NCBI GenBank assembly: GCA_011390755.1 | Contig: JAABRU010000009.1 | Location: forward strand, 1-64,000 | DNA length: 64,000 bases | Direction of reading: 5' to 3' | Source of the DNA: Desulfobacteraceae bacterium | Lineage (GTDB): Bacteria; Desulfobacterota; Desulfobacteria; Desulfobacterales; Desulfococcaceae | Shown: positions 43,670 to 61,962 of the stretch, piece by piece | Layout of the letters: the number at the start of each line of letters is the position of its first letter | How positions within the stretch are numbered: position 1 is the stretch's first letter | Made by a program: the position numbers and the translations under genes | Notes under the pieces: model-generated | Databases searched by the model: none | The model's input: the letters and a program-made list of their open reading frames with translations, nothing else | Told to the model about the DNA's origin: nothing

Positions 43670-43685
43670 TTCAATTTTTGTGCCA
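43670..43685 (-). promoter_or_regulatory. Sigma-54 promoter of the BON gene (site A)
   Basis: On the minus strand TGGCACAAAAATTGAA: perfect -24 TGGCAC, -12 TTGAA where TTGCA is consensus. It stands about 90 bases upstream of the BON start. Confidence 0.75.
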
Positions 43686-43787
43686 TGTTTCCAATATCCG
43701 GGGGTATATCTCCCATCATTCTGATTTTTAAAAATATACTGATTAGAAAATAGTTAGGGGACAGCATTGTCAGGCATATATAAAAAA

Positions 43788-43818
43788 GGTCATATTTGAC
43801 ATTATGTTACATATGACC
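43788..43818. promoter_or_regulatory. Paired activator boxes, site A
   Basis: Box 1 GGTCATATTTGAC (43788) and box 2 GTTACATATGACC (43806) start 18 bp apart, about 105-130 bp upstream of the sigma-54 element. See sites B to F for the same layout. Confidence 0.75.
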
Positions 43819-43891
43819 TTTTTTTGTAGTGGGGGCAAATCCGTTGATCCTTACATTCCCCTGCCCCCAATGCTGCTGCCTTAAGGCTGGA

Positions 43892-44117
43892 GGAGTGTCA
43901 AACTTACAGTTTGGCAGGTGTGCTAAACTGTAGCCGTGCTAAACTGTAAGTTCAGCACTCCGGAGGAAGGAGTGTCAAACTTACAGTTTGGCAGGTGTGC
44001 TAAACTGTAGTCGTGCTAAACTGTAAGTTCAGCACTCCGGAGGAAGGAATGCCAAACTTACAGTTTGGCAGGTGTGCTAAACTGTAGTCGTGCTAAACTG
44101 TAAGTTCGGCACTCCGG
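43892..44117. repeat. 77-bp tandem repeat, three copies
   Basis: Units begin at 43892, 43969 and 44046 (GGAGTGTCAAACTTACAGTT, then GGCAGGTGTGCTAAACTGTA, TGCTAAACTGTAAGTTCAGC). Each unit is itself a palindrome (GTGTCAAACTTACAG/CTGTAAGTTCAGCAC). The array is enclosed by ends of the TAGTGGG family (43827 and 44366-44388). It has no spacers and no cas genes nearby. Confidence 0.9.
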
Positions 44118-44426
44118 TTTTTCTTAAGGCAGCAGTATTGCCCTCAGTTGGTCTGTCAAATAAATTTTTTACCCTTTTAAAAAGTCAGGACTGAGGAGTC
44201 CAAACTGAAAGTTTGGAAGACTGCCAAACGACTCGACTTAGCTCGCCGAAGTCTTTCAGGCCTCGACGTGAGCTCCGCCGAACGTTTGGCACTCCTCCGC
44301 AGCTTTTCTGAGTGTACAGAAATATATTTGACAGTTCACTCAGGGGAGAGGAGACTTTATCACATCAAGGGATTTGACCCACTAGCGGTATTCGATTCCT
44401 GTCTCTGATTTTCGTGCTGTTTTGGG

Positions 44427-44799
44427 GGTGTCCTCATTTCTGTCTGGGTGAACAAAACGAAGGCAGATCCAGGCAAAAAAAGATAAAGGACTGTCAGACC
44501 CCACATCCAGAGCCATTCTTCCCGAAGCAGGACGGGCGAGCAGTTCGATATCCCTTATTTCCGGTGCAGGTTTCCGTCTGCGTCCAGGATCTTGATGCCG
44601 AAGAGATCTTTTTCCATGGACAAGGCGTGGGTTGCGCACGATATACATGGATCGTAAGCGCGGATCATGATCCCAACTTCGTGCTCCAGCTTTTCGCGAT
44701 CCACCTGCCCGCTGTGAATTGACCTGACTGCCACCTGTTTGAGCGAGAAATCAATAGCACCGGCGTTGGCATTCGTCGGCGTAATAATGTTGAAGGATT
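44427..44799 (-). pseudogene. Chimeric pseudogene: hydrogenase large-subunit tail joined to exporter tail
   Basis: Bases 44541-44799 match 54735-54995, the last 80 codons of the hydrogenase large subunit with its DPCISCATH site, at clearly more than 90 percent identity by eye. Bases 44427-44525 match 62100-62201, the last codons of the ABC-2 permease gene (FAWICLRFVHP), joined behind it. Both parents are in this window on the same strand. The frame could start at 44821, but without the N-terminal RxCGxC half it cannot make a hydrogenase. Confidence 0.88.
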
Positions 44800-44917
44800 C
44801 GCAAAAAATATTTTTTAACATACTGTATTTAAAACATTTAATTACTTCATTAAAAATATGCTTTTCCCCGATTTTGAAATATTCCTTGGATATAAAAAAC
44901 TTTTAAAAATCATCAGG

Positions 44918-46123
44918 TTAGAGAGTATTTTTTCCTGAACCCCCAATTTTAAGGCTATCGATAGACTCAGTATGCTCCAGAACTACCCGGTACGCATCCA
45001 TCCCGCGACTGCGAAATGCCTCTGCTGAGCCCCAGAGATACAGTCGAAAACGACGATAAAGTTTGTCTCCCCAGCGGTTGATAATTTCATCCCGTGCGGT
45101 TTCCAGATTCTCAGCCCATGCCTTGCAGGTGAGGTAGTAATTTCGCCGGTCGTTATAGACCTCCAACACCTCCCACGGGCTTTTCGCCACTTCGGCCAAA
45201 AACGCGTGCAGGCAGAAATAGGCATGGTCGCCCGGAAAGATGTAGCGGGACACGAAAGTGGGCTTGGAATACTTTTCCCGGTAGGCGCTGGCATCAAGGT
45301 AGACGCGCCCTCCGGGTTTCAGTAACTCCTGAAGATGCCGCAGCACGGCCGGATAGTCGGGAAGATGCTCCATCACCCCAAGAATAACAATGGCATCGTA
45401 AGGAACGGGGGAACTGTGCTCCCAGAAATCCTGGTTAAACACTCTGCAGGGAAGTTGCTGCTTTGCGATCAGGTCGGTCAGAAAGATATTGGACTGCTGT
45501 GAAATGGTCAGGGAAGTGACCTGAATGCCGCGTCTTCCGGCATGTTCTGTGAAACTGCCCCAGCCACCGCCAACATCCAGGACGCGATCTCCCGGTTTCA
45601 GCCCGCAGGCATCGATGGCAAAATCAAGTTTGCGTCGTTGGGCGGTTTCCAGGCTCTCATCGTCCCCTTCGAAAACGGCCTGCGAATAGCAGCGGGTCGG
45701 GTCCATGAACTTGAGATAAAATTCGTTGCTGAAGTCATAGTGTCCTGCAATGGCCTGCCGGTTGCTCCGTACCCGGCCGACAAAGTATGGCGCTATTCGC
45801 TGCCACAGGGAGTGCAGCGGATGGCGGTCGCTCAATAGCCCGCGGAGACTGGCAAACCCCAGCATGTCACCGGCAACATCCAGACTGCCGGCCATGTAAG
45901 CTTCGCAAATTTTCACCTCATCCAATTTGAGCAGCGCCGCCAGGCCCTGACGATCCTCCACCAGTATCCTGACTGCGGGGTCACCTTTTCCCAGACGATA
46001 GACATGCCCGCCCCATAACCGGATCTCAATCGGGAGCCGTAGCTTGTCGGCGATCCGTTTTTGAATCCGCTGGAAGATTTTGTCATAACCCGTTACCAAT
46101 GAAACCTCGGTAATTTGTTCCAT
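44918..46123 (-). CDS. Cyclopropane-fatty-acyl-phospholipid synthase-like methyltransferase
   Basis: A 401-residue enzyme expected to methylenate unsaturated fatty acids of membrane phospholipids using S-adenosylmethionine. The C-terminal catalytic part has HYDFSNEFYLKFMDPTRCYS (substrate-proximal region), SAM motif VLDVGGGWGSF (GGG where LDIGCGWG is usual), ITSLTISQQ-like segment and VILGVMEHLPDY. The N-terminal 120 residues match the lipid-binding SCP2-like part of such enzymes. The changed motif means a different lipid substrate is possible. AAAGGAGATAAGG precedes the ATG. It may be read from the sigma-54 promoter of the small gene upstream. Confidence 0.85.
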   Translation of the reverse strand: MEQITEVSLVTGYDKIFQRIQKRIADKLRLPIEIRLWGGHVYRLGKGDPAVRILVEDRQGLAALLKLDEVKICEAYMAGSLDVAGDMLGFASLRGLLSDRHPLHSLWQRIAPYFVGRVRSNRQAIAGHYDFSNEFYLKFMDPTRCYSQAVFEGDDESLETAQRRKLDFAIDACGLKPGDRVLDVGGGWGSFTEHAGRRGIQVTSLTISQQSNIFLTDLIAKQQLPCRVFNQDFWEHSSPVPYDAIVILGVMEHLPDYPAVLRHLQELLKPGGRVYLDASAYREKYSKPTFVSRYIFPGDHAYFCLHAFLAEVAKSPWEVLEVYNDRRNYYLTCKAWAENLETARDEIINRWGDKLYRRFRLYLWGSAEAFRSRGMDAYRVVLEHTESIDSLKIGGSGKNTL

Positions 46124-46415
46124 CCTTATCTCCTTTCATTTCAGAAAATGCCTCTTCCGCAGAATCTGCGGTCAGAGGTCGGTGAAAAATAGAACATTGC
46201 CTTCCATGTATGGCTAAGATGGTTTTTGCGTAAACTATCAAAATCAAACAAAAGAAAGGTAATACTCTAATATTTATTTAAATCCATCTACCTACAGATT
46301 CGGCTGAAGGGCTATTAATATTAATTTTATAGAGCTAAACATCTGTTCTCTATTTCGATAGTTCTTCATAAAACTTCCATTCTCAGTCAAAATGTGAGAA
46401 ACAGCACCGAAGCAC
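46124..46415. other. Intergenic, no gene seen
   Basis: AT-rich stretch between the methyltransferase gene and the 29-codon gene. No repeat family or terminator recognised. Confidence 0.4.
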
Positions 46416-46505
46416 TTACCGTCGTCTTTTCCAATAGTAACCGCCTCCACCGCCAAAGACCAATACCAACACTACAATGAGAATGATTAGACCTGTCGTA
46501 CTCAT
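46416..46505 (-). CDS. 29-residue hydrophobic protein
   Basis: A tiny gene reading MSTTGLIILIVVLVLVFGGG, then GGYYWKRRR and stop. GGGAGGAAATTACC gives a strong ribosome site at the right spacing, and a sigma-54 promoter stands about 90 bases upstream. The pattern (single helix, glycine run, basic tail) resembles small membrane proteins of the DUF3309 sort that occur in stress-gene islands. Function unknown; it may help membrane stress responses. Confidence 0.8.
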   Translation of the reverse strand: MSTTGLIILIVVLVLVFGGGGGYYWKRRR

Positions 46506-46594
46506 GGTAATTTCCTCCCTTTAATTTGTTGTAATTTTTTGTTAGTTCCCGGAACACTTTTTCCGGGCGAGTCATTTTCACTGCTTTTTATACA

Positions 46595-46610
46595 TTCAAT
46601 TTTTGTGCCG
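46595..46610 (-). promoter_or_regulatory. Sigma-54-like promoter (site B)
   Basis: On the minus strand CGGCACAAAAATTGAA, one base off the TGGCAC -24 element and with TTGAA at -12. It lies about 90 bases upstream of the 29-codon gene. Confidence 0.65.
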
Positions 46611-46708
46611 GGTTTCCAACATTTAGCATCACGTCCCCCATCATTTTGATTTATATAAATAATCAGTTAAAATGACATTAACAGGCGTTCATTATCTGCC
46701 ATATAAAA

Positions 46709-46740
46709 AGGATTATATTTGACCATTAGTCATATTTGAC
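46709..46740. promoter_or_regulatory. Paired activator boxes, site B
   Basis: Box 1 GGATTATATTTGACC (46709) and box 2 AGTCATATTTGACA (46727), starts 18 bp apart, about 100-130 bp upstream of the site B promoter element. Confidence 0.65.
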
Positions 46741-46815
46741 ATTTTTCTGGGGGTATGGGCCTACAAGCCCAGGCAGCAGACTTAAGCAGCATAAAATCCT
46801 TTTCAGTTCCAGGCA

Positions 46816-47619
46816 TTAATCGGTCATCCCTCCCGGCTTCACTTCGGTGACCATCACAGGGCTGAAGGCTTTACAGTTGTCGGCGTAATCCCATCGCTCA
46901 ATCAGGCAGCGTCCTTCGGATATACCGCTACCCCAACGTACCAGGTTAACCGAGTTCGGGATGCCGCCACGGACCCGTGACGACACGGCTGTTCCCGCCT
47001 GCACGGCCCACATTGGCCTCACGGGGTCAGGCAGCGCAATCACGTAGGGCAGATGGATGTGCCCGCCCATCACCAAATCGCCGCCGGCAGCTGCCCAGCG
47101 CCGCAGTGCGGTGGCGTACCCGCGCAGCCGGTCATGAACATCCTCTGCACGCCGTACGGCGAAGGGTTGATGGACCACCACCACGCGCAGTTGCTCCGGG
47201 CTGGCACCCGCCAGGTATCCTGCCACCCGCTCTGTCTGTTCCGTGGACACCTCTCCGTTTGTGTGCCGATACCAGCGCGTTGTGTTCACGCAGACCACCA
47301 GCAAATCGCGCGAGGAATGCACGGGCTCCAGTTCGTCGCCAAATGCGGTGCAGTGTCGGGCGTAAGGGTGAAAGATACGGGCGATCAGGTCGAAGAGCGG
47401 AATGTCGTGGTTGCCCGGAATGGCCAGCACCGGAGCAGCGAGCCTGTCAACAAAGCTTCGCGCATCGCGGAACTGGCCGGGACGGGCACGCTGAGTGATG
47501 TCGCCCGAGAGCACCACCAGGTCGGGCCGCTGTTGCAGCGATAGCGCGGCAAGCGCTTCGACAACCGGCAGTTTCTCTGTGCCGAAATGTGTGTCGGATA
47601 TCTGCAACAGGATAGTCAT
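46816..47619 (-). CDS. Calcineurin-like metallophosphoesterase
   Basis: A 267-residue phosphoesterase with all metal-ligand motifs: DTHFG (residues 9-13), SGDIT, GNHD, VVHQP and GHIH. The closest plan is that of cyclic-nucleotide phosphodiesterase-like (CpdA/Icc) enzymes, but lipid-linked phosphates are also possible substrates, given the lipid kinase it is coupled to. The start overlaps the kinase gene's stop by four bases (ATGA). The pair is visibly more GC-rich than the genes on both sides and probably arrived together from another proteobacterium. Confidence 0.88.
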   Translation of the reverse strand: MTILLQISDTHFGTEKLPVVEALAALSLQQRPDLVVLSGDITQRARPGQFRDARSFVDRLAAPVLAIPGNHDIPLFDLIARIFHPYARHCTAFGDELEPVHSSRDLLVVCVNTTRWYRHTNGEVSTEQTERVAGYLAGASPEQLRVVVVHQPFAVRRAEDVHDRLRGYATALRRWAAAGGDLVMGGHIHLPYVIALPDPVRPMWAVQAGTAVSSRVRGGIPNSVNLVRWGSGISEGRCLIERWDYADNCKAFSPVMVTEVKPGGMTD

Positions 47620-48638: not shown

Positions 48639-48798
48639 AGCAGTAAACCTGTTGGTTACTGACGGGACAACAAACTCCTGTCAGTGATTGTTTGGGAGAG
48701 ATTTACGGTCGCTCCCATATTAAACTGCAACCGAAGCCCCATAATGATGCAGGCAGGGCAAACAACACCATTAAATTTTTTAACACATGCTACCTACT

Positions 48799-48816
48799 CA
48801 AGGGCACCGGTGCCCT
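48799..48816 (-). terminator. Perfect 18-bp palindrome after the lipase-like gene
   Basis: AAGGGCACCGGTGCCCTT lies about 20 bases past the stop of the lipase-like gene. It has no loop and no T-run; it could be a terminator stem or a dimeric protein site. Otherwise 48639-48836 holds nothing recognisable. Confidence 0.35.
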
Positions 48817-48836
48817 TGCCCACCCAACCCCACAAA

Positions 48837-50258
48837 TTACAGTCCAAACAAACCGCTCCCCGGACAGGTATTGATAAAACAGCCCGAAGAACCCGCCTCT
48901 ATGATGTCCGAGCCCTGGGGCATGGAATCTTCAAAGGTCTCCAGCACAGGGGAAAAGCGCTGCTTCTCCTCTTCGGGCATATAGGCCAGTTCATCAAGGC
49001 TGGCTGCCACATGCTCCCAGAAATCGTATCTGTCAAATTTCCCTTCCACCATGTTAAGATGGTCAAAATCCGGGCAGATCACGGCTTTTCTGAAGTTCAT
49101 GCGATCCGTAAAATCTTTAAGATGAATCTTGTTGGATTCAATGGAGAGCCAGTTTTTATCCTCCTCCACGGTAAACATGGGTTCGTTGGCACTATCTTTT
49201 TTCAGAAAAAAGGCACTTTGAAGGGGCACCATGCCGTCATTGGCCATGTAATGAAACACATCTTCCCCTGTGCTTCCCCTGGAGGGTATTTCAGCTATAA
49301 ACTGTGTCGTCACCTCAAGGCCGGCATGATCCGTAAATGACAGGTTCAACCAGTTGAGAGCGGCGGCACCCCCAATACCCAAATCCGTGTCATAACCGCC
49401 GTAGGCGATGATCCTGCCGAAATACCGGGCATCCCGGTTCATCTCATCCAGGGTGCCAAAAGAACGATCCGGCAGATAGAGCATGGCATCGGACTGGTTC
49501 GTTTCCAGCATCGGGTTTTCCATATTGGCGTCCATAACAGAGAGATGATGCTCATCCCCCAGGTCAGAAGAAAGGAAAAACTGCCGGTATGGTATGCCGT
49601 TTTCCGGCCCGTCAAAATTATCCCAGCCAAGCCCCATAGTACCGATATCCGACACATTGACCTCATAACTATCCGTATATCCATAGATATAGGAGGCAAG
49701 ATCGTCTTCATGATCTTTACCGGATATTGCAAGAAGACCCCAGTCGGGTACTGCCGCCGGTGAGCCATGATGGGGAGTAGCCAGGGTCACAAGCCCCAGA
49801 ACGCGATTGCCTTCATTGCCCTCCCCATAACGGGTCATGTAGGAGCGGGATACCAGTCCTCCCCGGCTGTGTGCCAAAAGCAGAACCGGCCTCTCCTGAC
49901 CAAATTGGGCAATAATGGCATCCCCCAGCTCTTTGGCATTTCCCGAATGACCGTCGTAGCCAATCAGTTTTTCGGTGTTGTGGTGAAACCGCCATATTTC
50001 ATATCTGCTGGAAAACGCATCGTGTTCCGATACCCAGTTAAGAAAGATGTCCCACCGGTCTTCATCTTCCTTGAAACTGTTGTCACCGTGGACCAGAATC
50101 AGCGGAATCCTGTCCGGAGACTGATCGCTCTCTACGACCAGTCCGAAGAACTCTTCATCCGCCAGTGCGACACCGTCTGTCATTTTGGTCGGGACAGAAA
50201 ATATGGTCATCAGTGTAAAAAACAGCATTGAAAGAATAACAGTATGTTTTTTCATCAT
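48837..50258 (-). CDS. Secreted alpha/beta hydrolase (lipase-like)
   Basis: A 473-residue exported enzyme. The signal peptide ends near VALADEE. The hydrolase core shows IPLILVHGDNSF (oxyanion region), the nucleophile elbow LLLAHSRGGLVSRSY and LVTLATPHHGSPA, as in triacylglycerol lipases and PGAP1-like esterases. Later histidines (DFDHLNMVEG) supply a candidate for the catalytic histidine. The tail ends in two cysteines (SSGCFINTCPGSGLFGL). AGAGGAA precedes the double ATG. It follows the 53-codon gene by about 45 bases and is probably cotranscribed from the site C promoter. Confidence 0.85.
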   Translation of the reverse strand: MMKKHTVILSMLFFTLMTIFSVPTKMTDGVALADEEFFGLVVESDQSPDRIPLILVHGDNSFKEDEDRWDIFLNWVSEHDAFSSRYEIWRFHHNTEKLIGYDGHSGNAKELGDAIIAQFGQERPVLLLAHSRGGLVSRSYMTRYGEGNEGNRVLGLVTLATPHHGSPAAVPDWGLLAISGKDHEDDLASYIYGYTDSYEVNVSDIGTMGLGWDNFDGPENGIPYRQFFLSSDLGDEHHLSVMDANMENPMLETNQSDAMLYLPDRSFGTLDEMNRDARYFGRIIAYGGYDTDLGIGGAAALNWLNLSFTDHAGLEVTTQFIAEIPSRGSTGEDVFHYMANDGMVPLQSAFFLKKDSANEPMFTVEEDKNWLSIESNKIHLKDFTDRMNFRKAVICPDFDHLNMVEGKFDRYDFWEHVAASLDELAYMPEEEKQRFSPVLETFEDSMPQGSDIIEAGSSGCFINTCPGSGLFGL

Positions 50259-50302
50259 TTCCTCTTATTTATAATTTAAATAGGTTCTATCAAAATGTCT
50301 AA

Positions 50303-50464
50303 TTAACTTACCCAAACTCCCTCTCTTAAAATCAAAAGGTCAGATTGATTTGGCTCAAAGAGTGCAAGCACCTCGTCAAAACCGGATTGTTGAAGTTCTT
50401 TTACATCTGATTCGGCATCCTCGTGTGATGGATATGTTGCCACGATGTCTTTGTTTTTGTCCAT
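50303..50464 (-). CDS. 53-residue protein resembling the N-terminus of a general stress protein
   Basis: Reads MDKNKDIVATYPSHEDAESD, then VKELQQSGFDEVLALFEP, and stops after REGVWVS. AGAGAGGAGG gives a strong ribosome site. The FxSHEDAExxVKELQxxGFD pattern is that of the N-terminal part of YflT/DUF1269-like general stress proteins, which are about three times longer. It may be a genuine mini-protein or a truncated one. Confidence 0.7.
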   Translation of the reverse strand: MDKNKDIVATYPSHEDAESDVKELQQSGFDEVLALFEPNQSDLLILREGVWVS

Positions 50465-50574
50465 GATCCTCCTCTCTCTGCTGATAATTTCATTTATTCT
50501 CTACTCTCCTAATAATATTCTTTAATATTTACAGAATAGAAAAAAAGAGTGCCATTACTCAGGGAGTTTCCCAA

Positions 50575-50660
50575 AAATAAACTTCCCGTTTTTCTGTCTG
50601 AATGTCGGGTTACGCTGCGCTAACCCGACCTACTTTGGGTAGATTATTTTTGTCGAAGTC
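50575..50660. repeat. Palindromic module GTCGGGTTACGCTGCGCTAA
   Basis: AATAAACTTCCCG and similar arms surround the module TCGGGTTACGC-TGCGCTAACCCGACC, which also sits in the cores of the elements at 15226, 23158 and 61701. Confidence 0.5.
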
Positions 50661-50679
50661 CCTCATGCTTTTATACACT

Positions 50680-50768
50680 AATGCTTTGTCAGGATTGAAA
50701 TTGTGAGTTGTAAAAATCGGATTTTTCTGTACACCTGAACTCACATATTCAAAGTTGACAGAACACTG
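50680..50768. mobile_element. MITE family D between a sigma-54 promoter and its genes
   Basis: From AATGCTTTGTCAGGATTG to CAAAGTTGACAGAACACT, 89 bp. Its right end is 14 bases from the -12 element at 50783, so it sits about where transcription should begin. Its inner part resembles 61596-61700. Confidence 0.75.
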
Positions 50769-50782
50769 ATTGCTTTTCTTAT

Positions 50783-50798
50783 TGCATTCTCTGTGCAA
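50783..50798 (-). promoter_or_regulatory. Sigma-54-like promoter (site C)
   Basis: On the minus strand TTGCACAGAGAATGCA: two mismatches to TGGCAC-N5-TTGCA. It is now 320 bases from the first gene because of repeats inserted downstream. Confidence 0.5.
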
Positions 50799-50897: not shown

Positions 50898-50928
50898 GGC
50901 CATATATGCTCATAGGGTATATAGGACC
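50898..50928. promoter_or_regulatory. Paired activator boxes, site C
   Basis: Box 1 GGCCATATATG (50898) and box 2 GGGTATATAGGACC (50915), 17 bp apart; the most diverged of the six sites. It lies 100-130 bp upstream of the site C promoter element. Confidence 0.55.
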
Positions 50929-50987
50929 TTATTTTAGAACACATACGTTGTAAATGACTGAAAACTAATTCCACTTAACTTTTATAT

Positions 50988-51509
50988 TCAAGAATCTTTG
51001 TGGTGTAAGGAATTTTCAAACTCTTTACGATTATAAAACCCGTCGTCCAAAATCTCTGTATCAATTGTATCATCGTGAATATAATGGCGGAACATAATTA
51101 ATTCGTAGTCACGATCAATTTCGGATACTCTATTGAACCGTCTTGCTTTGACAAAAGTATTATAATCTATTTGGTTTGTAAGCACCTTTTTTTGTTCTTT
51201 ATTTAAATTCACCATTCCTATTGGTACAATAAGGTGTTCATCGCCATCCTTGTTTAAAAATCCATGCACACCATCGCTTACAGAAACATGGTAAGTGTTG
51301 TAACCAACCTCTATCAAAGAATCATCAACCTCAACATCAAGATAAACAACCCGTTCAGCTTTTTTATTAACCAGTAAATTGGTCACTTTCCCAATAGTGC
51401 GATTTTCGGCATCTATAACATCCCAGCCCCTTACATCATAATAATCGGACGCTACTTTATAATCGGAAAGCTCTTCTAAATAGTACAGGTTCTTATTATT
51501 GTCAGACAT
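50988..51509 (-). CDS. PRC-barrel domain protein, AT-rich
   Basis: A 173-residue protein. The PRC-barrel pattern is seen in VRGWDVIDAENRTIGKVTNL followed by ERVVYLDVEVDDSL and LIVPIGMVNLNKEQ. The protein is acidic and lacks a signal peptide. AAAGGA lies before ATG 51509; a TTG six codons upstream includes that site. It follows the TM/tandem-repeat protein gene by 24 bases. Both are more AT-rich than their surroundings and look like genes of Bacteroidota, which I infer from composition and style only. Confidence 0.85.
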   Translation of the reverse strand: MSDNNKNLYYLEELSDYKVASDYYDVRGWDVIDAENRTIGKVTNLLVNKKAERVVYLDVEVDDSLIEVGYNTYHVSVSDGVHGFLNKDGDEHLIVPIGMVNLNKEQKKVLTNQIDYNTFVKARRFNRVSEIDRDYELIMFRHYIHDDTIDTEILDDGFYNRKEFENSLHHKDS

Positions 51510-51533
51510 AATTATTATTCCTTTCAAAATTAT

Positions 51534-52280
51534 TTAATTCATTTTATACAGAAGGTCCGCTGCTTTACTAAAGAAAGTTTTAACTTCATCTTTCTGATCA
51601 AGAGTAAGTACTCCCGGTTTTATTGATTCTGATGCAATTTTTAATTCTGCAACTTCATTTATCAATCCCGGATATTTAGCCTTTTGGATGTTTTGCAATA
51701 CATTGGTTAAAATATCATCCGCCTTTCTAATGCTATCCGCATGTGTTGTTACAAAGGAATCTTTTTCAATCATTTCTGCATATTCCCTTACCTTTTCTAA
51801 ATCTGCCTGAACTTCGTATCCAACTTCACCGGCCATAGCATTTGTAGCTTCGATTAATTTTGAAAGAGTTTCATTTGTATATTCATGATCCAGACTCATC
51901 TTATTTTTGCCGGTTTCCACAAAATTTATATAAGCCGCCACGGTACTGTTATTTTCCTTCACATTTATGAGGTCTGTTTCCTTAGTATCTGTAAGTTCGG
52001 ATGTGAGGTCTGTTTCCTTAGTATCTGTAAGTTCGGATGTAAGGTCTGTTTCCTTAGTATCTGTAAGTTCGGATGTAAGGTCTGTTTCCTTAGTATCTGT
52101 AAGTTCGGATGTAAGGTCTGTTTCCTTAGTATCTATGAGTTCGGATGTTTTGGGCACTTCATTCGTTTCCCCATTGTAATCATTAAATGCCAGGAAATAA
52201 ATAAGTATTGCAATTACTACGAGTACCAATAATATCCACGGCCACACCAGTTTTTTCTTTTCAATTTTAATTTCTGTCAT
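51534..52280 (-). CDS. Single-helix membrane protein with five 12-residue repeats
   Basis: A 248-residue protein. A basic start (MTEIKIEKKKLVWPW) leads into one helix (ILLVLVVIAILIYFLAF), then five copies of a 12-residue unit TSELTDTKETDL, then a helical domain of about 130 residues (EYTNETLSKLIEATNAMAGE, LEKVREYAEMIEKD). It probably spans the inner membrane with a long repeat stalk in the periplasm. It is the first gene of an operon with the PRC-barrel gene, behind an excellent sigma-54 promoter. Family unknown. Confidence 0.82.
   Translation of the reverse strand: MTEIKIEKKKLVWPWILLVLVVIAILIYFLAFNDYNGETNEVPKTSELIDTKETDLTSELTDTKETDLTSELTDTKETDLTSELTDTKETDLTSELTDTKETDLINVKENNSTVAAYINFVETGKNKMSLDHEYTNETLSKLIEATNAMAGEVGYEVQADLEKVREYAEMIEKDSFVTTHADSIRKADDILTNVLQNIQKAKYPGLINEVAELKIASESIKPGVLTLDQKDEVKTFFSKAADLLYKMN
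51970..52149. repeat. 36-bp in-frame tandem repeat, five copies
   Basis: Unit AGGTCTGTTTCCTTAGTATC + TGTAAGTTCGGATGTA, nearly identical in all copies; the last unit differs (CTATGAGTTCGG). It keeps the reading frame and codes the stalk of the protein 51534-52280. Near-identity at DNA level suggests recent slippage. Confidence 0.95.
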
Positions 52281-52394: not shown

Positions 52395-52410
52395 TGCAAT
52401 CTTTGTGCCA
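52395..52410 (-). promoter_or_regulatory. Sigma-54 promoter (site D)
   Basis: On the minus strand TGGCACAAAGATTGCA: a perfect match to the -24/-12 consensus TGGCAC-N5-TTGCA. It stands 115 bases upstream of the repeat-stalk protein gene. Confidence 0.9.
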
Positions 52411-52510: not shown

Positions 52511-52542
52511 AGTCATATTTACTCGAAAGGTCACATATGACC
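52511..52542. promoter_or_regulatory. Paired activator boxes, site D
   Basis: Box 1 AGTCATATTTA (52511) and box 2 GGTCACATATGACC (52529), 18 bp apart; box 2 is a near-perfect palindrome. They lie 100-130 bp upstream of the site D promoter. Confidence 0.8.
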
Positions 52543-52670: not shown

Positions 52671-53352
52671 TTATAAAATCACCTTCCCGGATAGTCGGTC
52701 GGCCAGTTTGGGTAAGGTCATTCCCTGAACGACAATGGAGAAGATGACGATGATATAAGTGATGGTGATAATAGTTGTCCGCTCAGGAACATAGGGCAGG
52801 GACAGTGCCAGGGCAACCGAGATGCCGCCGCGCAGGCCTCCCCAGGTCATCATGGTAACCACTCCCTGACTGAATGGCCTGAAAGGCCGCATGGCCAGCA
52901 CCGCTCCCCCGACACATGCCCAGCGGGCAAAGAGGGTGATAACTATGGAGAAAAGTCCGGAAATGAATAACTTGAGATTAAAAGGTATGATCAGTATTTC
53001 CAGGCCAATCAGCATAAACAGGATGGCATTGAGAATTTCATCGATCAGTTCCCAAAAATCGTCAAGACGTTCCTGTGTGTGGTCGGACATGGCAAAGGTG
53101 CGACCGTGATTGCCAATAAGTAAACCCGCTACGACCATTGCAATCGGACCGGATATATGGAATCGGTCGGCAAAGGCATAACCGCCCATGACCATGGCCA
53201 GGGTGATAAGCACTTCCACCTGGTAGTTGTCGATCCGTTTCAGCATCTGATAGGCAACCACACCGATTGCCATGCCAAGCACGAACCCTCCGCCGACTTC
53301 CTTGAAAAAAAGCTTTGCCACATGGGTGATAGAAAGTTCTACTTCGCCCTGA
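52671..53352 (-). pseudogene. Na+/H+ antiporter (CPA1/NhaP type), N-terminal half lost
   Basis: The open frame gives the C-terminal half of an NhaP-like antiporter: TLAMVMGGYAFADRFHISGP, ILFMLIGLEILIIPF, MTWGGLRGGISVALALSLPY and a last helix. A full protein has about 400 residues or more. The frame has codons upstream of the possible ATG at 53321 (QGEVELSITHV) and stops making sense exactly where a family D MITE begins at 53352. Beyond the MITE follow the activator boxes of site E, so the promoter and first six or so helices have been replaced. An internal start could still make a partial membrane protein, but it is unlikely to transport. Confidence 0.85.
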
Positions 53353-53493
53353 GTGCTCTGTCAAAGTTAATCTGACGGGTATGCAAAGCTGTAGGGGCGT
53401 ATTGCATACGCCCGCCGGTTGGCGTTCCGGGGCGTATGCAATAAGCCCCTGCAGAAATAATATCACCCGTCATTCAAATGTTGACAGAACACT
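53352..53493. mobile_element. MITE family D2 inside the antiporter locus
   Basis: From AGTGCTCTGTCAAAGTTA to ATGTTGACAGAACACT, 142 bp, with inner ends TCTGACGGGT/ACCCGTCA and the core GTAGGGGCGTATTGCATACG. It resembles 30583-30734. Confidence 0.85.
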
Positions 53494-53505: not shown

Positions 53506-53536
53506 GGTCATGTTTAACCGGTGGTCATATATGACA
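53506..53536. promoter_or_regulatory. Paired activator boxes, site E (no promoter left)
   Basis: Box 1 GGTCATGTTTA (53506) and box 2 GGTCATATATGACA (53523), 17 bp apart. The place where a sigma-54 element should lie, toward the antiporter, is occupied by the MITE at 53352-53493. Confidence 0.75.
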
Positions 53537-54465: not shown

Positions 54466-54546
54466 TTAGCCTCTCCAGTCTGAAGCCAGCAGGCCCTTGT
54501 CGTTGGCCAGTGCCCTCGCGGTGTCTATAAGCTTTTGTGCGTTCAT
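54466..54546 (-). pseudogene. Remnant of class I fructose-bisphosphate aldolase (first 22 codons)
   Basis: Reads [20 protein letters not shown] followed by ASDWRG and stop. The beginning is that of class I aldolases (MNxxxLxxTARALVxxxKGLLAxDE). GGAGG precedes the ATG. All but the first 22 codons are missing and the following bases form the leader of the CDF gene. Confidence 0.75.
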
Positions 54547-54740
54547 CTTTGATACCTCCATTCAATTATTAACAGGCCATGCTCCGGCACTGGTGTCGAA
54601 GTATATGCGTTCTGTTTTTTGGTCTGATTCCATTTCCAGTTGCGTATTTCCGGCAGATCCCCGCCGTGTTTATCAATATATATTCTGTGTTCGATGAGCT
54701 TATCCTGCATCATCTGCTTCAGATAATCCCCTTTAGCAGT
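54543..54740 (-). pseudogene. Remnant of phosphoketolase (C-terminal end)
   Basis: This frame contains [20 protein letters not shown] followed by [13 protein letters not shown], the C-terminal end of xylulose-5-phosphate/fructose-6-phosphate phosphoketolases. The rest of that about 800-residue enzyme is missing. Its stop overlaps the start of the aldolase remnant, as in an operon. Confidence 0.78.
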
Positions 54741-54751
54741 TTCGATATCCG

Positions 54752-56176
54752 TTATTTCCGGTGCAGGTTTCCGTCTGCGTCCAGGATATTGATGCCGAAA
54801 AGATCCTCTTCCATTGACAAGGCGTGGGTTGCGCACGATATACACGGATCGTACGCTCGGATCATGATCCCAACCTCGTGCTCCAGCTTTTCGCGATCCA
54901 CCTGCCCGCTGCGAATGGACCGGACTGCCACCTGTTTGAGCGAGAAATCAATGGCACCGGCGTTGGCATTCGTCGGCGTAATAATGTTGGCTGCACGGAT
55001 GTAGCCGTCGTCATCCCACCGGAAATGATGGATCAGCAAGCCCCGAGGTGCTTCCACGATACCCACCCCTTCCCCGGCCTTGTACTCTGCGGGAGCGGCC
55101 GGTTCCCATTCGGTGATCCCCGGATCCGCCAGTATCTGTTCTGCGCGCTCGATGGCATAGACCGCCGATATATACCGGGCAAAGTGCTGCGCCAGCGTCT
55201 CCTGGGCCACCTGGCCGAACCCGGAGCGAAATTTCTCCATCAGTCGGCCGGCCTGCTCGGTACCGGCAACCCCGGCAGCGTTGACCCGCGCCATGGGTCC
55301 GGCCCGATACATGCCATCCGAAGCCCCCGCCGACGGCAGGCAGGCCGCTTTGGCATAGCTGTAGTTTATGTTTTTTTCCCCGATATGATCGAGGTACGCG
55401 CCGGCCGGAAAATCGGCCGCCACCGAGCCGCCGGGGTCAATGATGCGCACCGTTCCATCGTACAATGCCATCCGGTCGTCGCTGACGAGGGCTAGGAAAT
55501 ATGTGTCCAGTCGGCCAAGACCGGCGTAATCCTGCATCGCTTTCCGGAGCCGGGGAAACCACAATTCGTCGCAGAGCTTCAGGAGCGTTTCCTTCACCTG
55601 CCGCACGCCTTTCAGAAACCGTTGCCGCTCCGCTTCTGTCATGCCTTTGTTAAGCCCGCCCGGTACAGCCGCGTTGGGGTGAACGGCCTGGACCCCGAAC
55701 GCGGAGATGATGGTTTGCGTCACGTTGCGCATGGACACGACCTGCCGCAGGACCTGGGGATATGTTGCGTAGATCGTCGGGAGCCCTCTCTGCGCCAGCG
55801 GCAGATCCGGCAGAAGCAGGTCCGCCCCCGCCAGAACAAACATATGCAGCAGATGGTCGCTCACATGCTCGCAGGCCAGCATCAGTTCCCTCAACATTGC
55901 CACCGGGCGCGGCGGTTCCAGTCCCAGCCCGTTCTCCAGAGCCTTGACCGAGGCCAGGTGATGGGGTACGGGGCAGACACCGCAGATGCGCGGGGTTATC
56001 AATAGTGCTTTTGAAGCGTGATGGCCGCATAAAAATGCCTCAAAGCCCCGAAACTCAAGGAGCTGGGCCTGCGCCTGGGCGACGTTTCCCTCTTCGTCCA
56101 AATTGATCGAAACATTCATTTTCCCTTCGATGCGCGTGATTGATGCCACGTTGATCTTTTCTGTTCTCACGATCAT
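54752..56176 (-). CDS. NiFe hydrogenase large subunit (group 3-like)
   Basis: A 474-residue catalytic subunit of a NiFe hydrogenase. Both metal-ligand motifs are complete: R63-ICGVC and, at 443-451, DPCISCATH. Twenty-three residues follow the last histidine, of the length expected for a C-terminal processing peptide. The sequence style and the small partner are those of cytosolic group 3 (Mvh/Hox-like) enzymes rather than of periplasmic group 1. It starts inside the stop of the small-subunit gene (4-base overlap). Maturation genes and a protease are not in the window. Confidence 0.93.
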
Positions 56177-57542: not shown

Positions 57543-57546
57543 TCCA

Positions 57547-58410
57547 CTACTCCTTCCGGTGTTTTTCTATCGGTTGCTCTACTGGCGGTTGCTCCATTCG
57601 GTTTTTGCGCCATTTAAGGCCATTGTAAACCAAGCCGCCGATTATGGGAATCCAGCCAAAGTGTGCGAGCTGGGTGATGTCCGCCTTCATTCCCGCCTCC
57701 CCCGAATATCGGGGGGTGAAGCCGAAAAGGCGGGACATCATTCCTGTATTCAATGCCTCAGGCGCGAACAGGATGAGCGTGTTCGTCTGCTCCGGATAGA
57801 GAAGGACGCCCCCCATCTCCTGTGCCTTCTGCATCCCTAATTCCCGCATTTCGTCAAAATGCCCAAAGGACAATGCGTCGTAGCCATAGGCATGACAGAC
57901 GTCCACGCAGGCCGGGTTGGCACCGGCGACGATCCGGTCGTAGCACATATCACATTTATAAACTTTGCCCTGAGAGGGTTCATAGTGCAAGGACTTTGGG
58001 AAGGGACAGACATTGACGCAGGACAGACAGCCGATGCAGAGGTTCTCATTCAGGATCACAGCCCCCAGAGCCGTCTTTGTCAGTGCTTTGCCTTCACATA
58101 CCCGTGTACAGGGGGAATCGAAGCAGTGCATGCAGTGAGTTGAAACCGGCAAGGGTCTGGCATCTTTACCTTGCGGATAGGTAAGGGTAACCTGGGTATA
58201 GAAAGTGCCGGGATGCTCCCCGCCGTGCTGCTTCCCGCATGCCCCGACGCATTTTTCGCAGAAGGAGCATCGGGTCGTGTCTGTCAGGATGGCAAATTCC
58301 TTGCCATGGCCGGCCGCGGGCCTGCCTTCGCCGCCCAAAAATGCCGTAGGCAGCACGACAGCGCTGTTTTTGAAGAAATCCCGCCTTGACCATCCGCTTT
58401 GGTTTTCCAT
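57547..58410 (-). CDS. Tat-exported ferredoxin with four [4Fe-4S] clusters and membrane anchor
   Basis: A 287-residue HybA/DmsB-like electron carrier. The Tat signal has SRRDFFKNSAVVLPTAFLGG. Cysteine sets follow: CSFCEKCVGACGKQHG, CMHCFDSPCTRVCE, CIGCLSCVNVCPFP and CDMCYDRIVAGANPACVDVC. A hydrophobic stretch near the C-terminus (HFGWIPIIGGLVYNGL) should anchor it on the periplasmic side. AAAGGAGG precedes ATG 58410. It lies between the oxidoreductase and the membrane subunit. Confidence 0.9.
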   Translation of the reverse strand: MENQSGWSRRDFFKNSAVVLPTAFLGGEGRPAAGHGKEFAILTDTTRCSFCEKCVGACGKQHGGEHPGTFYTQVTLTYPQGKDARPLPVSTHCMHCFDSPCTRVCEGKALTKTALGAVILNENLCIGCLSCVNVCPFPKSLHYEPSQGKVYKCDMCYDRIVAGANPACVDVCHAYGYDALSFGHFDEMRELGMQKAQEMGGVLLYPEQTNTLILFAPEALNTGMMSRLFGFTPRYSGEAGMKADITQLAHFGWIPIIGGLVYNGLKWRKNRMEQPPVEQPIEKHRKE

Positions 58411-58432
58411 GACTCTGCCTCCTTTCAATTTT

Positions 58433-60430
58433 TCAGGCCAGTTTCCCCTCGCGCGCCAGTTCATCTGCCACATCATCCAGGCCCAGTTCGTGCAGTTTGG
58501 CACGGGTCGGGAAGCCGCTTTCGGTACTCCAGCCCCTGAGGTCGTAGTAGCGATCCATCATCCGGCGGTAGAGATCGGGATTGAGCCTTTGCGGCTCGTC
58601 CGGATGCATGGACGGTTGCTCCTCAAAGTAGCGGCTGATACTGGCATCCTCGATACGGGTCTTGCCCTGCCGGACGTGCAAAGCCCGCATGAGGTTGTAG
58701 CATCGTTCCGTGGCCTTGTGCATGTCGTCAAGCGACCAATCGGTGCCCACCACGGCGTTAAACAGCCGTACCTCAGCCGTGTAATCTCCCACCATGTCCG
58801 CCGTCGCGGTGGAATAGGTCATGGGGAACGACTGGTCACACACGCAAATGCTGCATTTCATAACAGAGCGGTTTTCATGCCAGATGACCACAATCTCTTT
58901 GTCACGGTACCCCATCTCCTCGTCATCCGGCCAGCCTGCAAAGGCATATTCGGTGCCATAGACCTTGCGACCGATGACCTTGAGCTGCTCGTAGGGGACA
59001 GGTGAGCCGTCCGTCCATTCCTTTACGGCACGGTGATAACTCTGCACGGCGCCGTGTGTCGAATTCATCGGGTCGCGACCGCGCGTGGCCCACACTCCGG
59101 CGCTGATTACCCACATGGGAAAGTGGACGAATTGCAAATACCGGCCGTCCCAGTGGGGGCCGTAGCCACGCTTGTGTGTCTGCCACACCAGATCCTCCAG
59201 TCCCAGCTTTTCGGCTGCCCGCGGGGTTCCCTCGGCAAAGATATCTCCGTCCCCTTTTCGATAAGCTATTGCCTGGATGAACTGCACGGCCTGTTCCGGC
59301 GTAAACCCAAGATATGCCTCAGACTCAGCCTTGGGATACACGGCCGGGCCATTCCTGTTCAAAGACAACTCCCGGCCCATAAGCGTCTGTAACCTGCCGG
59401 CGTTGTAGCAGTTCTGGATAAACCAGTTCATGCCTTCGAACATTTCCCAATGGTTCAGGCCCAGCCAGTCGCACAGCTTGGCAATTTCGAAACCGCCGGC
59501 TTCGACATCGGAATCTCCCTTCAGCATCGCTGAACCGGCAGTGCCGACACAGTGCATGACACCGGAAAGCATTCCGGTGCCTATGTAGTGCATCGGCACA
59601 TTCTCATAATAGTCCTGAAACGGCATCGTGCATTCGCCGCAAGAGGTGCATCCGGACTGCTTGCGCACGCAATACCTGTCGTACCGGGTGAACAGTTTTC
59701 GGGGTGAACCGGTTCCGGCGGGGCTCCCCTGTGGAAGCTCGTCCGCGATCTTGCGCGTCTCATATAACAGCACATCCGGCCTGGCCACTTTTATGGCACA
59801 CCGGCCCCCGTTCACCACGACAGCCTTGAGCTTTTTCGAGCCCATGACGGCGCCAAAGCCGCCCTGTCCGCAGGCGTTCCCTGTTTTCGTCAGAATGATG
59901 GCCAGGCGCACGAGGTTCTCACCGGCCGGCCCGATGGCGGCGATAGCCGCTTCTCGGCCGTGCGCCTGCATCAGCATTTCATGCGTGTTCAGGGTCGTCA
60001 ATCCCTTGAGATTGGATGCATCCCGCAGTTCGGCATACCCGTCTTCAATATACAGATAGGTCAGGGAGGGTGCCTGCCCCACCAGCAGGATGGCATCGTA
60101 GCCTGCGAATTTGAGCTGCTTGGCAAAGTCGCCGCCGAAACCGGAACCGGCCACCCAGGGCTGCGGATATCCCTGCGGCGCGATGCCCACTACCTCGCTG
60201 CGCCCCGAGGTTGGGGCCGGCGTACCCGCGCAGGGTCCCGTGGTAAAGACCAGCGGGGCATCGGGGCTGTACTCCGAAGGGAAAGGCTTGCCTACGGTCT
60301 CGTCCCAGATCAGCTTGAGCCCAAGGCCATAACCACCGATGAAATCGGGGACGTACTGACCTGTATCCAACTCCCGGATCACATTGGTCGTCAGATTCAC
60401 TTTCAGAATTTTGCCAGCGTAACCGTTCAT
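58433..60430 (-). CDS. Aldehyde ferredoxin oxidoreductase family protein (tungsten/molybdopterin)
   Basis: A 665-residue enzyme expected to hold a bis-pterin tungsten (or molybdenum) centre and one [4Fe-4S] cluster. The first domain shows YAGKILKVNLTT, FIGGYGLGLKLIWDE and FTTGPCAGTPAPTSGR, typical for pterin binding, then GQGGFGAVMGSKKLKAVVV. The cluster motif reads CTSCGEC (CxxCxxC), one residue shorter than the CxxCxxxC I expect in this family, with more cysteines before it and at KCSICVC. It may oxidise aldehydes or reduce acids. No export signal is visible, while both neighbouring ferredoxins have one. ATG 60430 overlaps the upstream gene by four bases, after GGGAGGAG. Confidence 0.9.
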   Translation of the reverse strand: MNGYAGKILKVNLTTNVIRELDTGQYVPDFIGGYGLGLKLIWDETVGKPFPSEYSPDAPLVFTTGPCAGTPAPTSGRSEVVGIAPQGYPQPWVAGSGFGGDFAKQLKFAGYDAILLVGQAPSLTYLYIEDGYAELRDASNLKGLTTLNTHEMLMQAHGREAAIAAIGPAGENLVRLAIILTKTGNACGQGGFGAVMGSKKLKAVVVNGGRCAIKVARPDVLLYETRKIADELPQGSPAGTGSPRKLFTRYDRYCVRKQSGCTSCGECTMPFQDYYENVPMHYIGTGMLSGVMHCVGTAGSAMLKGDSDVEAGGFEIAKLCDWLGLNHWEMFEGMNWFIQNCYNAGRLQTLMGRELSLNRNGPAVYPKAESEAYLGFTPEQAVQFIQAIAYRKGDGDIFAEGTPRAAEKLGLEDLVWQTHKRGYGPHWDGRYLQFVHFPMWVISAGVWATRGRDPMNSTHGAVQSYHRAVKEWTDGSPVPYEQLKVIGRKVYGTEYAFAGWPDDEEMGYRDKEIVVIWHENRSVMKCSICVCDQSFPMTYSTATADMVGDYTAEVRLFNAVVGTDWSLDDMHKATERCYNLMRALHVRQGKTRIEDASISRYFEEQPSMHPDEPQRLNPDLYRRMMDRYYDLRGWSTESGFPTRAKLHELGLDDVADELAREGKLA

Positions 60431-61065
60431 AATTTTCGCTCCTCCCTCGGTACATAAGTCAGGGCTCGTCCGCCGCCTGCCTCTGAACAGACGTAAATGC
60501 AGGCCGGTCCATCCTTTCTGTCCCTGCACAGGTCGCATTTGATAGCTATTTTGTCCGTGATATCAAAGCTGACGCGGGATGGTGTGTATGTGCATGCCTC
60601 GACGCACTTGCGACAGCCGATGCACTTTGCCTGATTGACCAATCTTGCGCCGGTCCCTTCATTGATGATCATGGCTCCTTCGACAGGACAGGCAGCGTAG
60701 CAATCGGGTGCAGCGCACTGCTGGCAAAACATGGGCGTGCGCATGTAATGCTCTGCAAATTCTGTTTTCCACATGACGCTGGAAAACCGGGGATTGGTGT
60801 TTCCCCCGTGCACCAGCGCACACGCCAAAACGCACCTTTCGCACCCGACGCATTTATCCGAATCCCACCGGATGTAGTCGGATGGGGGTACTGCTACTCT
60901 GTTCCCGGTCACCGCAGGTTCAGTTTCCGGCCGGGATTCCCGCAATATGACAAAGCCGCCCGCGGAGAGGAGTACGCCACCGGCAGCGCCCGCCGCCACA
61001 CCCCTGAGAAAATTCCGCCGCGATATCTCTTTTTCAGGTTCTCTTTTCAAACCAAAATCTTCCAT
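60427..61065 (-). CDS. Tat-exported ferredoxin with four [4Fe-4S] clusters
   Basis: A 212-residue electron carrier, first gene of the oxidoreductase-hydrogenase operon. The Tat signal is SRRNFLRGVAAGAAGGVLLS. The cluster motifs are CVGCERCVLAC, CQQCAAPDCYAACP, CIGCRKCVEACTYTP and CDLCRDRKDGPACIYVC. It is probably the electron partner of the oxidoreductase. GGAGGAG precedes ATG 61065. The nearest good promoter is the sigma-54 element at 61818-61833, now 750 bases upstream behind MITEs. Confidence 0.9.
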   Translation of the reverse strand: MEDFGLKREPEKEISRRNFLRGVAAGAAGGVLLSAGGFVILRESRPETEPAVTGNRVAVPPSDYIRWDSDKCVGCERCVLACALVHGGNTNPRFSSVMWKTEFAEHYMRTPMFCQQCAAPDCYAACPVEGAMIINEGTGARLVNQAKCIGCRKCVEACTYTPSRVSFDITDKIAIKCDLCRDRKDGPACIYVCSEAGGGRALTYVPREERKL

Positions 61066-61174
61066 GTTCTCCTCCCCGGATGTGCGTTTACTTATGCCGG
61101 ATCCTTCAGAACAGCCATATATACCATTACTCAATAAATTTCCGCTTACCCGGATTTCCGAAAAATGCCCGGAT

Positions 61175-61281
61175 ATTGGATTCCCCCGTAAAAAGTCCGG
61201 AAATCAAGTTTTGACACATATTAATTATTTGATTTTATTAATATCAGATGTTGGAAATCCGACTTTTTACAGGTTCATCAA
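61175..61281. repeat. MITE family B, copy 4
   Basis: Left end CCCCGTAAAAAGTCCGG (degenerate) and right end GACTTTTTACAGGTTCATCAA, with TTGATTTTATTAATATCAGA in the core, mirror orientation to the copy at 36501. Confidence 0.65.
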
Positions 61282-61435
61282 ATCATATTTTCTAAAAAAA
61301 AATAATTTGTAATCGAACACGAACAATTTCAACAAAAGACTTTTTGAATTGTTCAGATTCCCCCGCAACTTGAACTTTTATAAAACAAAAAAATGATTTT
61401 ACCCCACCACTGTCAAAATTTGTGCATTTGTCACT

Positions 61436-61807
61436 ACTGCATTGTCAACATTTAAATGACGGGTATGCAACATATTGAATTTTTTTGTAGGGTGGGCAAA
61501 AGCGCAGCGCTGCCCACCGATTCAGGTGGGCACGGAAAAACATGTGCCCACCCTACAAAAAATTCAACCCGTCATTTAAACCTTGACAAAACACTACTGC
61601 TTCGTCAACTTTAAAATTATGTGTTAAAAAATCGGATTTTTCCAAAAAATCCGATTTTTCAGTGCAAATGAAGTCACAGATTCAAAATTGAAAATGCACT
61701 ACTGCATTGTTTCACTTAAAATTGTGCAGGTATTTCGGAGCAGAACATCCGAATGCCGGGTTACGCTTCGCTAACCCGACCTACAATTTTAAATGAAACA
61801 GAGCACT
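61436..61807. mobile_element. Train of three abutting family D MITEs before the oxidoreductase operon
   Basis: 61436-61595 (ACTGCATTGTCAACATTT ... CTTGACAAAACACT, with a core GTAGGGTGGGCAAAAGCGCA), 61596-61700 (ACTGCTTCGTCAACTTTA ... TTGAAAATGCACT) and 61701-61807 (ACTGCATTGTTTCACTTA ... AAATGAAACAGAGCACT). Each junction reads CACTACTGC. The third matches 15226-15331 in reverse. The last end is 10 bases from the sigma-54 -12 element. Confidence 0.85.
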
Positions 61808-61817
61808 ACATTTTATA

Positions 61818-61833
61818 TGCAATCTTTGCGCCA
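61818..61833 (-). promoter_or_regulatory. Sigma-54 promoter (site F) of the oxidoreductase-hydrogenase operon
   Basis: On the minus strand TGGCGCAAAGATTGCA: one mismatch to TGGCAC-N5-TTGCA. It shares flanking bases with site D (ATGCAATCTTTG), but is separated from the first gene by 750 bases of MITEs. Confidence 0.8.
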
Positions 61834-61930
61834 GGCTCCCAACACTCATGTGGTGTCACTCATCGTATTGATTTTCAGGAATAATTAGTAAAAAACTTTT
61901 TCAGAGCAGGGACTGACAGTCACATAAACA

Positions 61931-61962
61931 GGTCATATTTGCCCGAATGGTCATATATGACC
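61931..61962. promoter_or_regulatory. Paired activator boxes, site F
   Basis: Box 1 GGTCATATTTG (61931) and box 2 GGTCATATATGACC (61949), 18 bp apart; the clearest copy, with box 2 a perfect 14-bp palindrome. They lie about 100-130 bp upstream of the site F promoter. Confidence 0.85.

Follow-up and report, generated by a model that had tools for sequence, protein, structure and literature searches.

A probable two-box activator site upstream of sigma-54 promoters in Desulfobacterales and its candidate enhancer-binding protein

In the passages of Haft et al. 2006 (PMC1569441) on the PEP-CTERM box, a conserved non-coding block is described in which an activator motif lies upstream of a sigma-54 element and is matched by phylogenetic profile to PrsR. 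For the enhancer-binding protein (EBP) regulons of D. vulgaris, the sections of Kazakov et al. 2015 (PMC4641369) on regulon size report mostly one to four operons, with 6, 9 and 12 in the largest, and a 2025 survey finds, in its part on EBP counts, the highest numbers in Desulfobacteria (PMC12316311). Here, we describe six two-box sites in a stretch of 64,000 nucleotides from a Desulfobacteraceae bacterium (assembly GCA_011390755.1, contig JAABRU010000009.1, positions 1 to 64,000), hereafter called the window, and their recurrence in the source genome and in its order. Judged from sequence comparison, these very probably serve as tandem activator sites upstream of the promoters in a sigma-54 regulon and are read by a bacterial enhancer-binding protein (bEBP) of the type of two proteins termed P0001 and P0002. 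To our knowledge, few EBPs of Desulfobacteria have an assigned role.

A first-pass annotation of the window had named six sites with box starts 17-18 bp apart and, at five of them, a -24/-12 element on the minus strand. To recover the boxes, matches to the palindrome GGTCATATATGACC with at most 3 mismatches were counted, and the count was compared with its expectation and with 100 shuffles. The window holds 14 matches against 2.05 expected, a total reached in 0/100 shuffles. Boxes of the six sites account for 11 of the matches; the other three lie at 16378, 49833 and 56667, and at site 52511 the proximal box exceeds 3 mismatches. The first box had been taken for a half-site. Read along transcription on the minus strand, however, both boxes are near-complete 14-bp dyads, and the distal one is mostly closer to the perfect palindrome. 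By palindrome scan and alignment, the box pairs were placed on the minus strand at 43805..43818 (distal, box 1) and 43788..43801 (proximal, box 2) for site 43788, at 46711..46741 for site 46709, at 50898..50928 and 52511..52542 for the sites of these numbers, and at 61931..61962 for site 61931, where the distal box is a perfect palindrome. All five -24/-12 elements were found by pattern match on the same strand, with 0-2 mismatches: TGGCACAAAAATTGAA at 43670..43685 (1 mismatch), CGGCACAAAAATTGAA at 46595..46610 (2), the weak TTGCACAGAGAATGCA at 50783..50798 (2, TTGCAC-N5-ATGCA), the perfect TGGCACAAAGATTGCA at 52395..52410 (0) and TGGCGCAAAGATTGCA at 61818..61833 (1). Taken alone, this element is barely above chance in the window (29 versus 21.2 expected, with 29 reached in 5/100 shuffles), and the evidence therefore lies in the fixed arrangement. 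The five promoter-bearing blocks could be aligned over 162 columns with a mean identity of 78% per column, spacer included, and follow one order: distal dyad, proximal dyad 17-18 bp on, T-rich tract, AAAATCARAATGATG block and TGGCAC-N5-TTGCA. At site 43788, the conserved block resembling a binding site of integration host factor (IHF) reads AATCAGAATGATG and lies 41 bp upstream of the -24 (43714..43726, minus strand, from the alignment, position counted manually). The sixth box pair, site 53506 (53506..53536, minus strand), is followed by an inverted-repeat element, with no -24/-12 found downstream, and appears to be an orphan or decayed site.

The source genome (G000, 6.9 Mb scanned, window contig C291) was searched with R1, a sequence-only profile built from the five window blocks, and with R2, a second profile for which 27 sites, including 17 from this genome, served as the training set. 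Both profiles include the -24/-12 and the IHF-like block, and their matches are partly selected for both; a dyad-only pattern search, a count of exact palindromes and a promoter test at exact palindromes are free of this bias. The dyad-only search gave 9 distinct sites in the source genome, including window sites 43788 and 53506, and a good -24/-12 stands at the same distance in 7 of the 9, the exceptions being a site on contig C55 and window site 53506. R1 found 18 places at E ≤ 1.2e-6, namely the five training blocks and 13 more, 12 of which have a -24/-12, with C55 again as the sole exception. A further site, C191:5897, reached only E 0.25 with R1 and was significant with R2, which also lists the box pair at 53490. 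The scan of the genome that the first-pass annotation had proposed as a check thus yielded 20 sites, 18 with a -24/-12, which lies at 131-137 or 146-147 bp in 17 of the 18 (the eighteenth being C191:5897). As 14 of the 20 sites lie outside the window, the regulon is not local, as had been supposed: six sites are on C291, four on C307, three on C249, two each on C355 and C191, and one each on C252, C54 and C55. They are clustered, with four on the 31-kb C307 and three on the 12-kb C249, and in genome G001 a 41-kb part of a single 4.46-Mb contig contains five. None of the 20 box pairs overlaps an open reading frame (ORF) of at least 150 aa under a greedy ORF choice, compared with 70% of random segments, which rules out for these sites that the motif is equally at home inside genes. 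The C55 site (locus L042, 7417-7534) is a strong box pair without a -24/-12, approximately 420 bp before an ATP-synthase beta-like gene.

For comparison, 146 genomes of the order were drawn evenly from a larger group. The exact palindrome occurs 26 times in them, and a reversed control once. The promoter test covered 20 of these exact copies in 17 fetched loci and took the best -24/-12 within +60 to +219 with a score of at least 14 of 16. In 18 of the 20, this element was found at +114 to +134; of 3400 random positions in the same loci, 102 scored equally well at +110 to +139, with both strands considered. Together with the palindrome statistics of the window and the exact-palindrome counts, this rules out chance. 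The geometry was followed in 82 distinct sites (86 given, 4 identical ones dropped), all picked by R1 or R2; where -24 candidates scored equally, the one closer to 134 bp was taken. Box starts are 17 bp apart in 57/82 and 18 bp in 25/82, and the distance from the distal box to the -24 is 128-134 bp in 77/82. The other five distances (123, 143, 143, 145 and 153 bp) differ from 132 bp by approximately whole helical turns. In 53/82 sites, the -24 is preceded at 40-42 bp by a WATCARNNNNWTR block, compared with 1.4% of shuffled spacers.

Two of the site-bearing contigs encode a bEBP, P0001 on C307 and P0002 on C191, which are 74% identical to each other. Both match Sigma54_activat, the AAA lid and the helix-turn-helix (HTH) family HTH_8 above the Pfam cut-offs, and the Pfam search gave no receiver domain match for either. 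P0002 carries the GAFTGA loop, and its match ends 152 bp before a site, so a bEBP gene does stand near a further copy of the motif, where the first-pass annotation had suggested looking for one. Its statement that the window itself has no activator gene also held: of the 27 bEBP matches in the source genome at E ≤ 1e-60, none is on C291 among the 24 listed. Matches to rpoN (one) and to the HU/IHF family (four) are also present in the genome. In a sequence search of the PDB, known bEBPs matched over the AAA+ and HTH parts, and none of the 36 matches listed covered the PAS-like part. The predicted structure of P0001, built on 9 sequences, has a PAS-like order of strands and helices at low confidence (mean predicted local distance difference test score, pLDDT, 55.7; predicted template modelling score, pTM, 0.30). 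Among the NCBIfam matches listed (25 of 30 for P0001, 25 of 28 for P0002), no cut-off was reached; the best scores of both proteins came from FhlA, NifA and NorR models, all below cut-off. An equivalog identity with NtrC, NifA, NorR, FhlA or PspF was rejected on these cut-offs.

The link between this family and the sites was followed across the 146 genomes for one family, the P0001-type bEBP, with a relative defined as a P0001 match at E ≤ 1e-140 and a strong site as an R2 match at E ≤ 1e-9. A relative was found in 27 genomes, strong sites in 35 and both in 26, and sites occur in 9/119 genomes without a relative. The 27th relative-bearing genome, G095, has weaker sites only (best E 6.1e-7). 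At the looser E ≤ 0.01, R2 finds some match in 84/146 genomes, many of them partial, and the strict cut therefore matters. Of the 26 copies of the exact palindrome, 19 are in 11/27 genomes with a relative and 7 in 6/119 others; of the 18 copies with a promoter, 4 lie in genomes without a relative (G006, G085, G116, G145), and the two copies that failed the promoter test are also from such genomes (G011, G015). Within six genomes of the family, R1 sites (E ≤ 0.001) occur only in G000, G001 and G003, and only these three encode full-length relatives at 74-75% identity; G002 has a partial one at 60%, and G004 and G005 reach at most 48%.

The sites often lie close to the candidate regulator genes. 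Altogether, the 27 genomes yield 30 relatives. With sites listed down to about E 6e-6, the matched stretch is followed on the same strand by a site that begins 33-456 bp past its end in 21/30, or in 16/23 when the seven relatives from R2-training genomes are left out. In G003 the nearest site is upstream of the relative, and 4/30 relatives have no listed site on their contig. Among 80 bEBP loci from named genomes, R2 at E ≤ 1e-8 hits only L077-L081, with sites 59-756 bp behind the match, and these are five full-length orthologs at 70-74% identity. Four of their sites were used to train R2 and that of L080 was not; none of the five took part in the training of R1, which recovers four (E 8e-13, 1e-5, 3e-5 and 0.06). 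Weak matches in other bEBP loci are limited to L106 (E 0.005) and L126 (E 0.28) with R2 and L120 (E 0.046) with R1. The earlier proposal of sigma-54 enhancer sites in front of stress-type genes thereby gains support from the genome scan, the recurrence in relatives, the co-occurrence and adjacency with the bEBP, and the phased geometry. In G001, locus L052 contains two near-identical sites, with near-identical downstream ORFs, 11 kb apart (6637-6789 and 17470-17622), the first of which stands behind a bEBP with a different N-terminal part. Two genomes that have sites and no relative, G006 and G115, keep a broken regulator beside a site, in two pieces in G115. The remnant in G006 (L226:6075-6635, contig C61) joins the PAS part to the HTH part without an AAA+ domain, has stops upstream and directly precedes a site.

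In the mechanism that we propose, a one-component bEBP with a PAS-like sensor, coiled coil, AAA+ ATPase and Fis-type HTH would bind the pair of GGTCATATATGACC dyads, spaced 17-18 bp apart. From the boxes to the promoter, the DNA would follow a bend; the bending protein is probably IHF or one like it, acting at the AATCARNATGATR block, which precedes the -24 by 40-42 bp. The bend would bring the AAA+ ring to RNA polymerase-sigma-54 at TGGCAC-N5-TTG, where ATP hydrolysis by the ring would open the promoter. Several results weigh against this assignment. The Fisher test of the co-occurrence (p 4.1e-20, or 2.8e-18 without G000, G001 and G003) counts phylogenetically related genomes that are not independent, and only 11 of the 27 relative-bearing genomes contain the exact palindrome. 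The strict form of the IHF consensus, WATCARNNNNTTR, fits 5/82 sites. The PAS_4 and PAS_9 matches of P0001 and P0002 remain under the Pfam cut-offs (E about 2e-4), and in 8 of the 30 relatives the match begins no earlier than residue 128, so that their N-terminal part differs. P0001 has GAFTSA instead of GAFTGA in its loop, a form not included among the tolerated variants in the passage listing them for D. vulgaris (Kazakov et al. 2015, PMC4641369), and the nearest site is 4.7 kb upstream of its start. Nine genomes bear sites without a relative at E ≤ 1e-140, and for seven of them (G008, G116, G145, G039, G055, G081, G085) no ortholog was found, the best bEBPs being 45-57% identical. In these seven, no bEBP listed at E ≤ 1e-78 lies near a listed site, and only in G039 do the two share a contig, approximately 177 kb apart. 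Another activator may read the motif there, or the gene may be missing from the drafts; G081, G145 and G116 are 65-87% complete.

The seven genomes could also mean that the dyads belong to a different regulator, that another bEBP drives the promoters, and that the PAS-type bEBP is a mere neighbour or target. The distance of P0001 from its nearest site fits this explanation, as does the fact that the site behind the bEBP gene drives the next operon and not the bEBP itself. However, a site within 456 bp of the match end in 21/30 relatives argues for a closer tie, and a distance to the -24 that is nearly constant at 128-134 bp, apart from outliers close to whole turns, would be required by an activator that acts through looping; we regard this explanation as unlikely. 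Less probable still is an origin of all blocks from one mobile or recently duplicated element that carries promoter-like sequence, by which their likeness would be due to copying instead of control. The identity of the five window blocks, which extends into the spacer, would be expected from copying, the two L052 blocks of G001 (6637 and 17470) are near-identical along with their downstream ORFs, and inverted-repeat elements adjoin at least two window sites. Between genomes, however, boxes, IHF-like block and -24/-12 are kept in spacers that have diverged, and the helical phasing of the outlier distances and the co-occurrence with one bEBP family also speak against copying. Control by the P0001/P0002-type bEBP remains our preferred explanation.

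All window genes considered here are on the minus strand. Behind site 43788, a BON-domain protein of 242 aa (42852..43580; domain match and ORF model) starts 84 bp past the modelled site and is followed by a PRC-barrel protein of 255 aa (41958..42725, domain match), relatives of which follow sites in three other genomes. Site 46709 precedes an ORF for a membrane peptide of 29 residues with a ribosome-binding site (46416..46505), for which no Pfam family scored above cut-off, and a cyclopropane-fatty-acid-synthase-like methyltransferase (44918..46123) is a possible second gene of this unit. The unit of site 50898 consists of a 53-aa ORF with a ribosome-binding site (50303..50464), which has only below-cut-off matches, one of them to the heat-stress protein YflT, and of a lipase-like alpha/beta-hydrolase (48837..50258, domain match). 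At site 52511, a repeat protein of 248 aa with an N-terminal hydrophobic stretch and no family match (51534..52280) is followed by a further PRC-barrel protein (50988..51527, domain match). The Na+/H+ antiporter ORF behind site 53506 (52671..53321) had been counted among the regulated genes, an assignment that needs correction: the site has no -24/-12, an inverted-repeat element follows, and the ORF, matching positions 175-372 of the 375 in the Pfam model, is apparently 5'-truncated. Of the oxidoreductase operon placed behind site 61931, the promoter is present. Membership of the unit, a ferredoxin-type protein with a twin-arginine translocation (TAT) signal and an aldehyde ferredoxin oxidoreductase (58433..61134, domain matches), is uncertain because the promoter is separated from the unit's first start with a ribosome-binding site by approximately 750 bp, a stretch that contains inverted-repeat elements. 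Several such elements follow one another at 61065-61830, each succeeded by a GCAGTAGTG-like stretch, and a related inverted-repeat end has 8 matches in the window compared with 0.3 expected, including 53479, 50753 and 30408. Repeats are also seen around a hydrogenase large-subunit-like ORF (54752-56176): its C-terminal end recurs as a separate ORF at 44555-44821, a neighbouring ORF is similar as well, and the repeated stretches span 44382-44821 and 54543-55004.

Outside the window, sites of the source genome are followed by DUF883- and holin-like proteins, with FtsH and the bEBP further on, by a peroxiredoxin, by a P-type metal ATPase behind a 133-aa ORF, and by BON and Band-7 proteins. A GGDEF-EAL protein, an ABM protein, a glycosyltransferase, a PEP-CTERM protein and several proteins without a family were found as well, and in G001 a superoxide dismutase follows a site. 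One gene on C307, a sulphur oxygenase reductase (L036:5869-6777, Pfam SOR, E 4e-148), is found among the regulon genes of this presumed relative of sulfate reducers. When 209 proteins downstream of 65 fetched sites were clustered, with operons guessed from spacing, the most widespread clusters were an ABM-domain protein (12 genomes), a glycosyltransferase (11; a single-linkage cluster of mixed families) and a B12 radical SAM protein (9), while FtsH, PRC-barrel and two BON clusters each cover 3-4 genomes.

The targets are largely envelope and oxidative stress genes, and it is from this gene content that we infer a stress or redox role. Many operons would be switched on jointly for envelope upkeep (BON, PRC-barrel, FtsH, Band-7/HflKC-like, DUF883- and holin-like proteins, PLD-type synthase), for oxidative defence (peroxiredoxin and, in G001, superoxide dismutase), and for metal and energy functions. 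Quite possibly, although we stop short of calling it probable, one sigma-54 activator family runs the general stress response in many Desulfobacterales and does the job of RpoS, SigB or EcfG through an ATP-driven enhancer switch with a PAS-like sensor and about 20 operons, largely in stress islands. As far as we know, such bacteria lack RpoS. A tentative alternative, which is compatible with the same mechanism, retains regulon and activator as described and assigns them to one specific signal, such as oxygen exposure, lipid damage or dormancy. The top downstream clusters (ABM, glycosyltransferase, B12 radical SAM) are not a classic stress list and point in this direction; the recurrence of BON, PRC-barrel, FtsH, Band-7, DUF883-like, peroxiredoxin, superoxide dismutase and PLD-type genes as targets or neighbours speaks for a broader role.

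Among the papers listed by searches of the open-licence literature of PubMed Central, none was seen to describe this regulon, as judged by titles and the beginnings of abstracts, and GGTCATATATGACC was not found there as a string. A large regulon is thereby given a sequence signature, a target list and a candidate activator, and many small proteins without a family are marked as likely co-regulated envelope or stress factors. P0001 and P0002 share AAA+ and Fis-type HTH with the bEBPs NorR, FhlA, NifA and PspF, the sensor domains and dyads of which presumably differ. Similar in design is the PEP-CTERM box with PrsK and PrsR, which likewise combines a conserved block, a sigma-54 element and one bEBP, and one site here precedes a PEP-CTERM gene. 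However, the passages of Haft et al. (PMC1569441) on these components describe PrsR as a two-component response regulator, in contrast to the one-component protein here, and a motif 1 of 17 nt ending in TTTACA approximately 63 nt from motif 2, whereas we find a tandem GGTCATATATGACC dyad and a spacer of approximately 100 nt. Motif, spacing and the missing receiver domain rule out identity with the PEP-CTERM box/PrsR system, as does the score of P0001 against TIGR02915 (311.8 bits versus a cut-off of 502.6). With DVU3305, a sulfate reducer likewise places stress genes (UspA-type) under sigma-54-dependent control. In the parts of Rajeev et al. 2011 (PMC3333781) devoted to it, DVU3305 is, unlike the present candidate, a two-component general-stress response regulator with a few target operons; the main text contains no GGTCA or TGACC string. 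There is also a likeness to the EBP regulons of D. vulgaris Hildenborough, for which the corresponding sections of Kazakov et al. (PMC4641369) describe PAS-type one-component bEBPs, dyads upstream of sigma-54 promoters and regulators often beside their targets; the text of those sections names no GGTCATATATGACC-type motif. Measured against the at most 12 operons given there for a single EBP, the 18 promoter-bearing sites in one genome make the regulon described here a large one.

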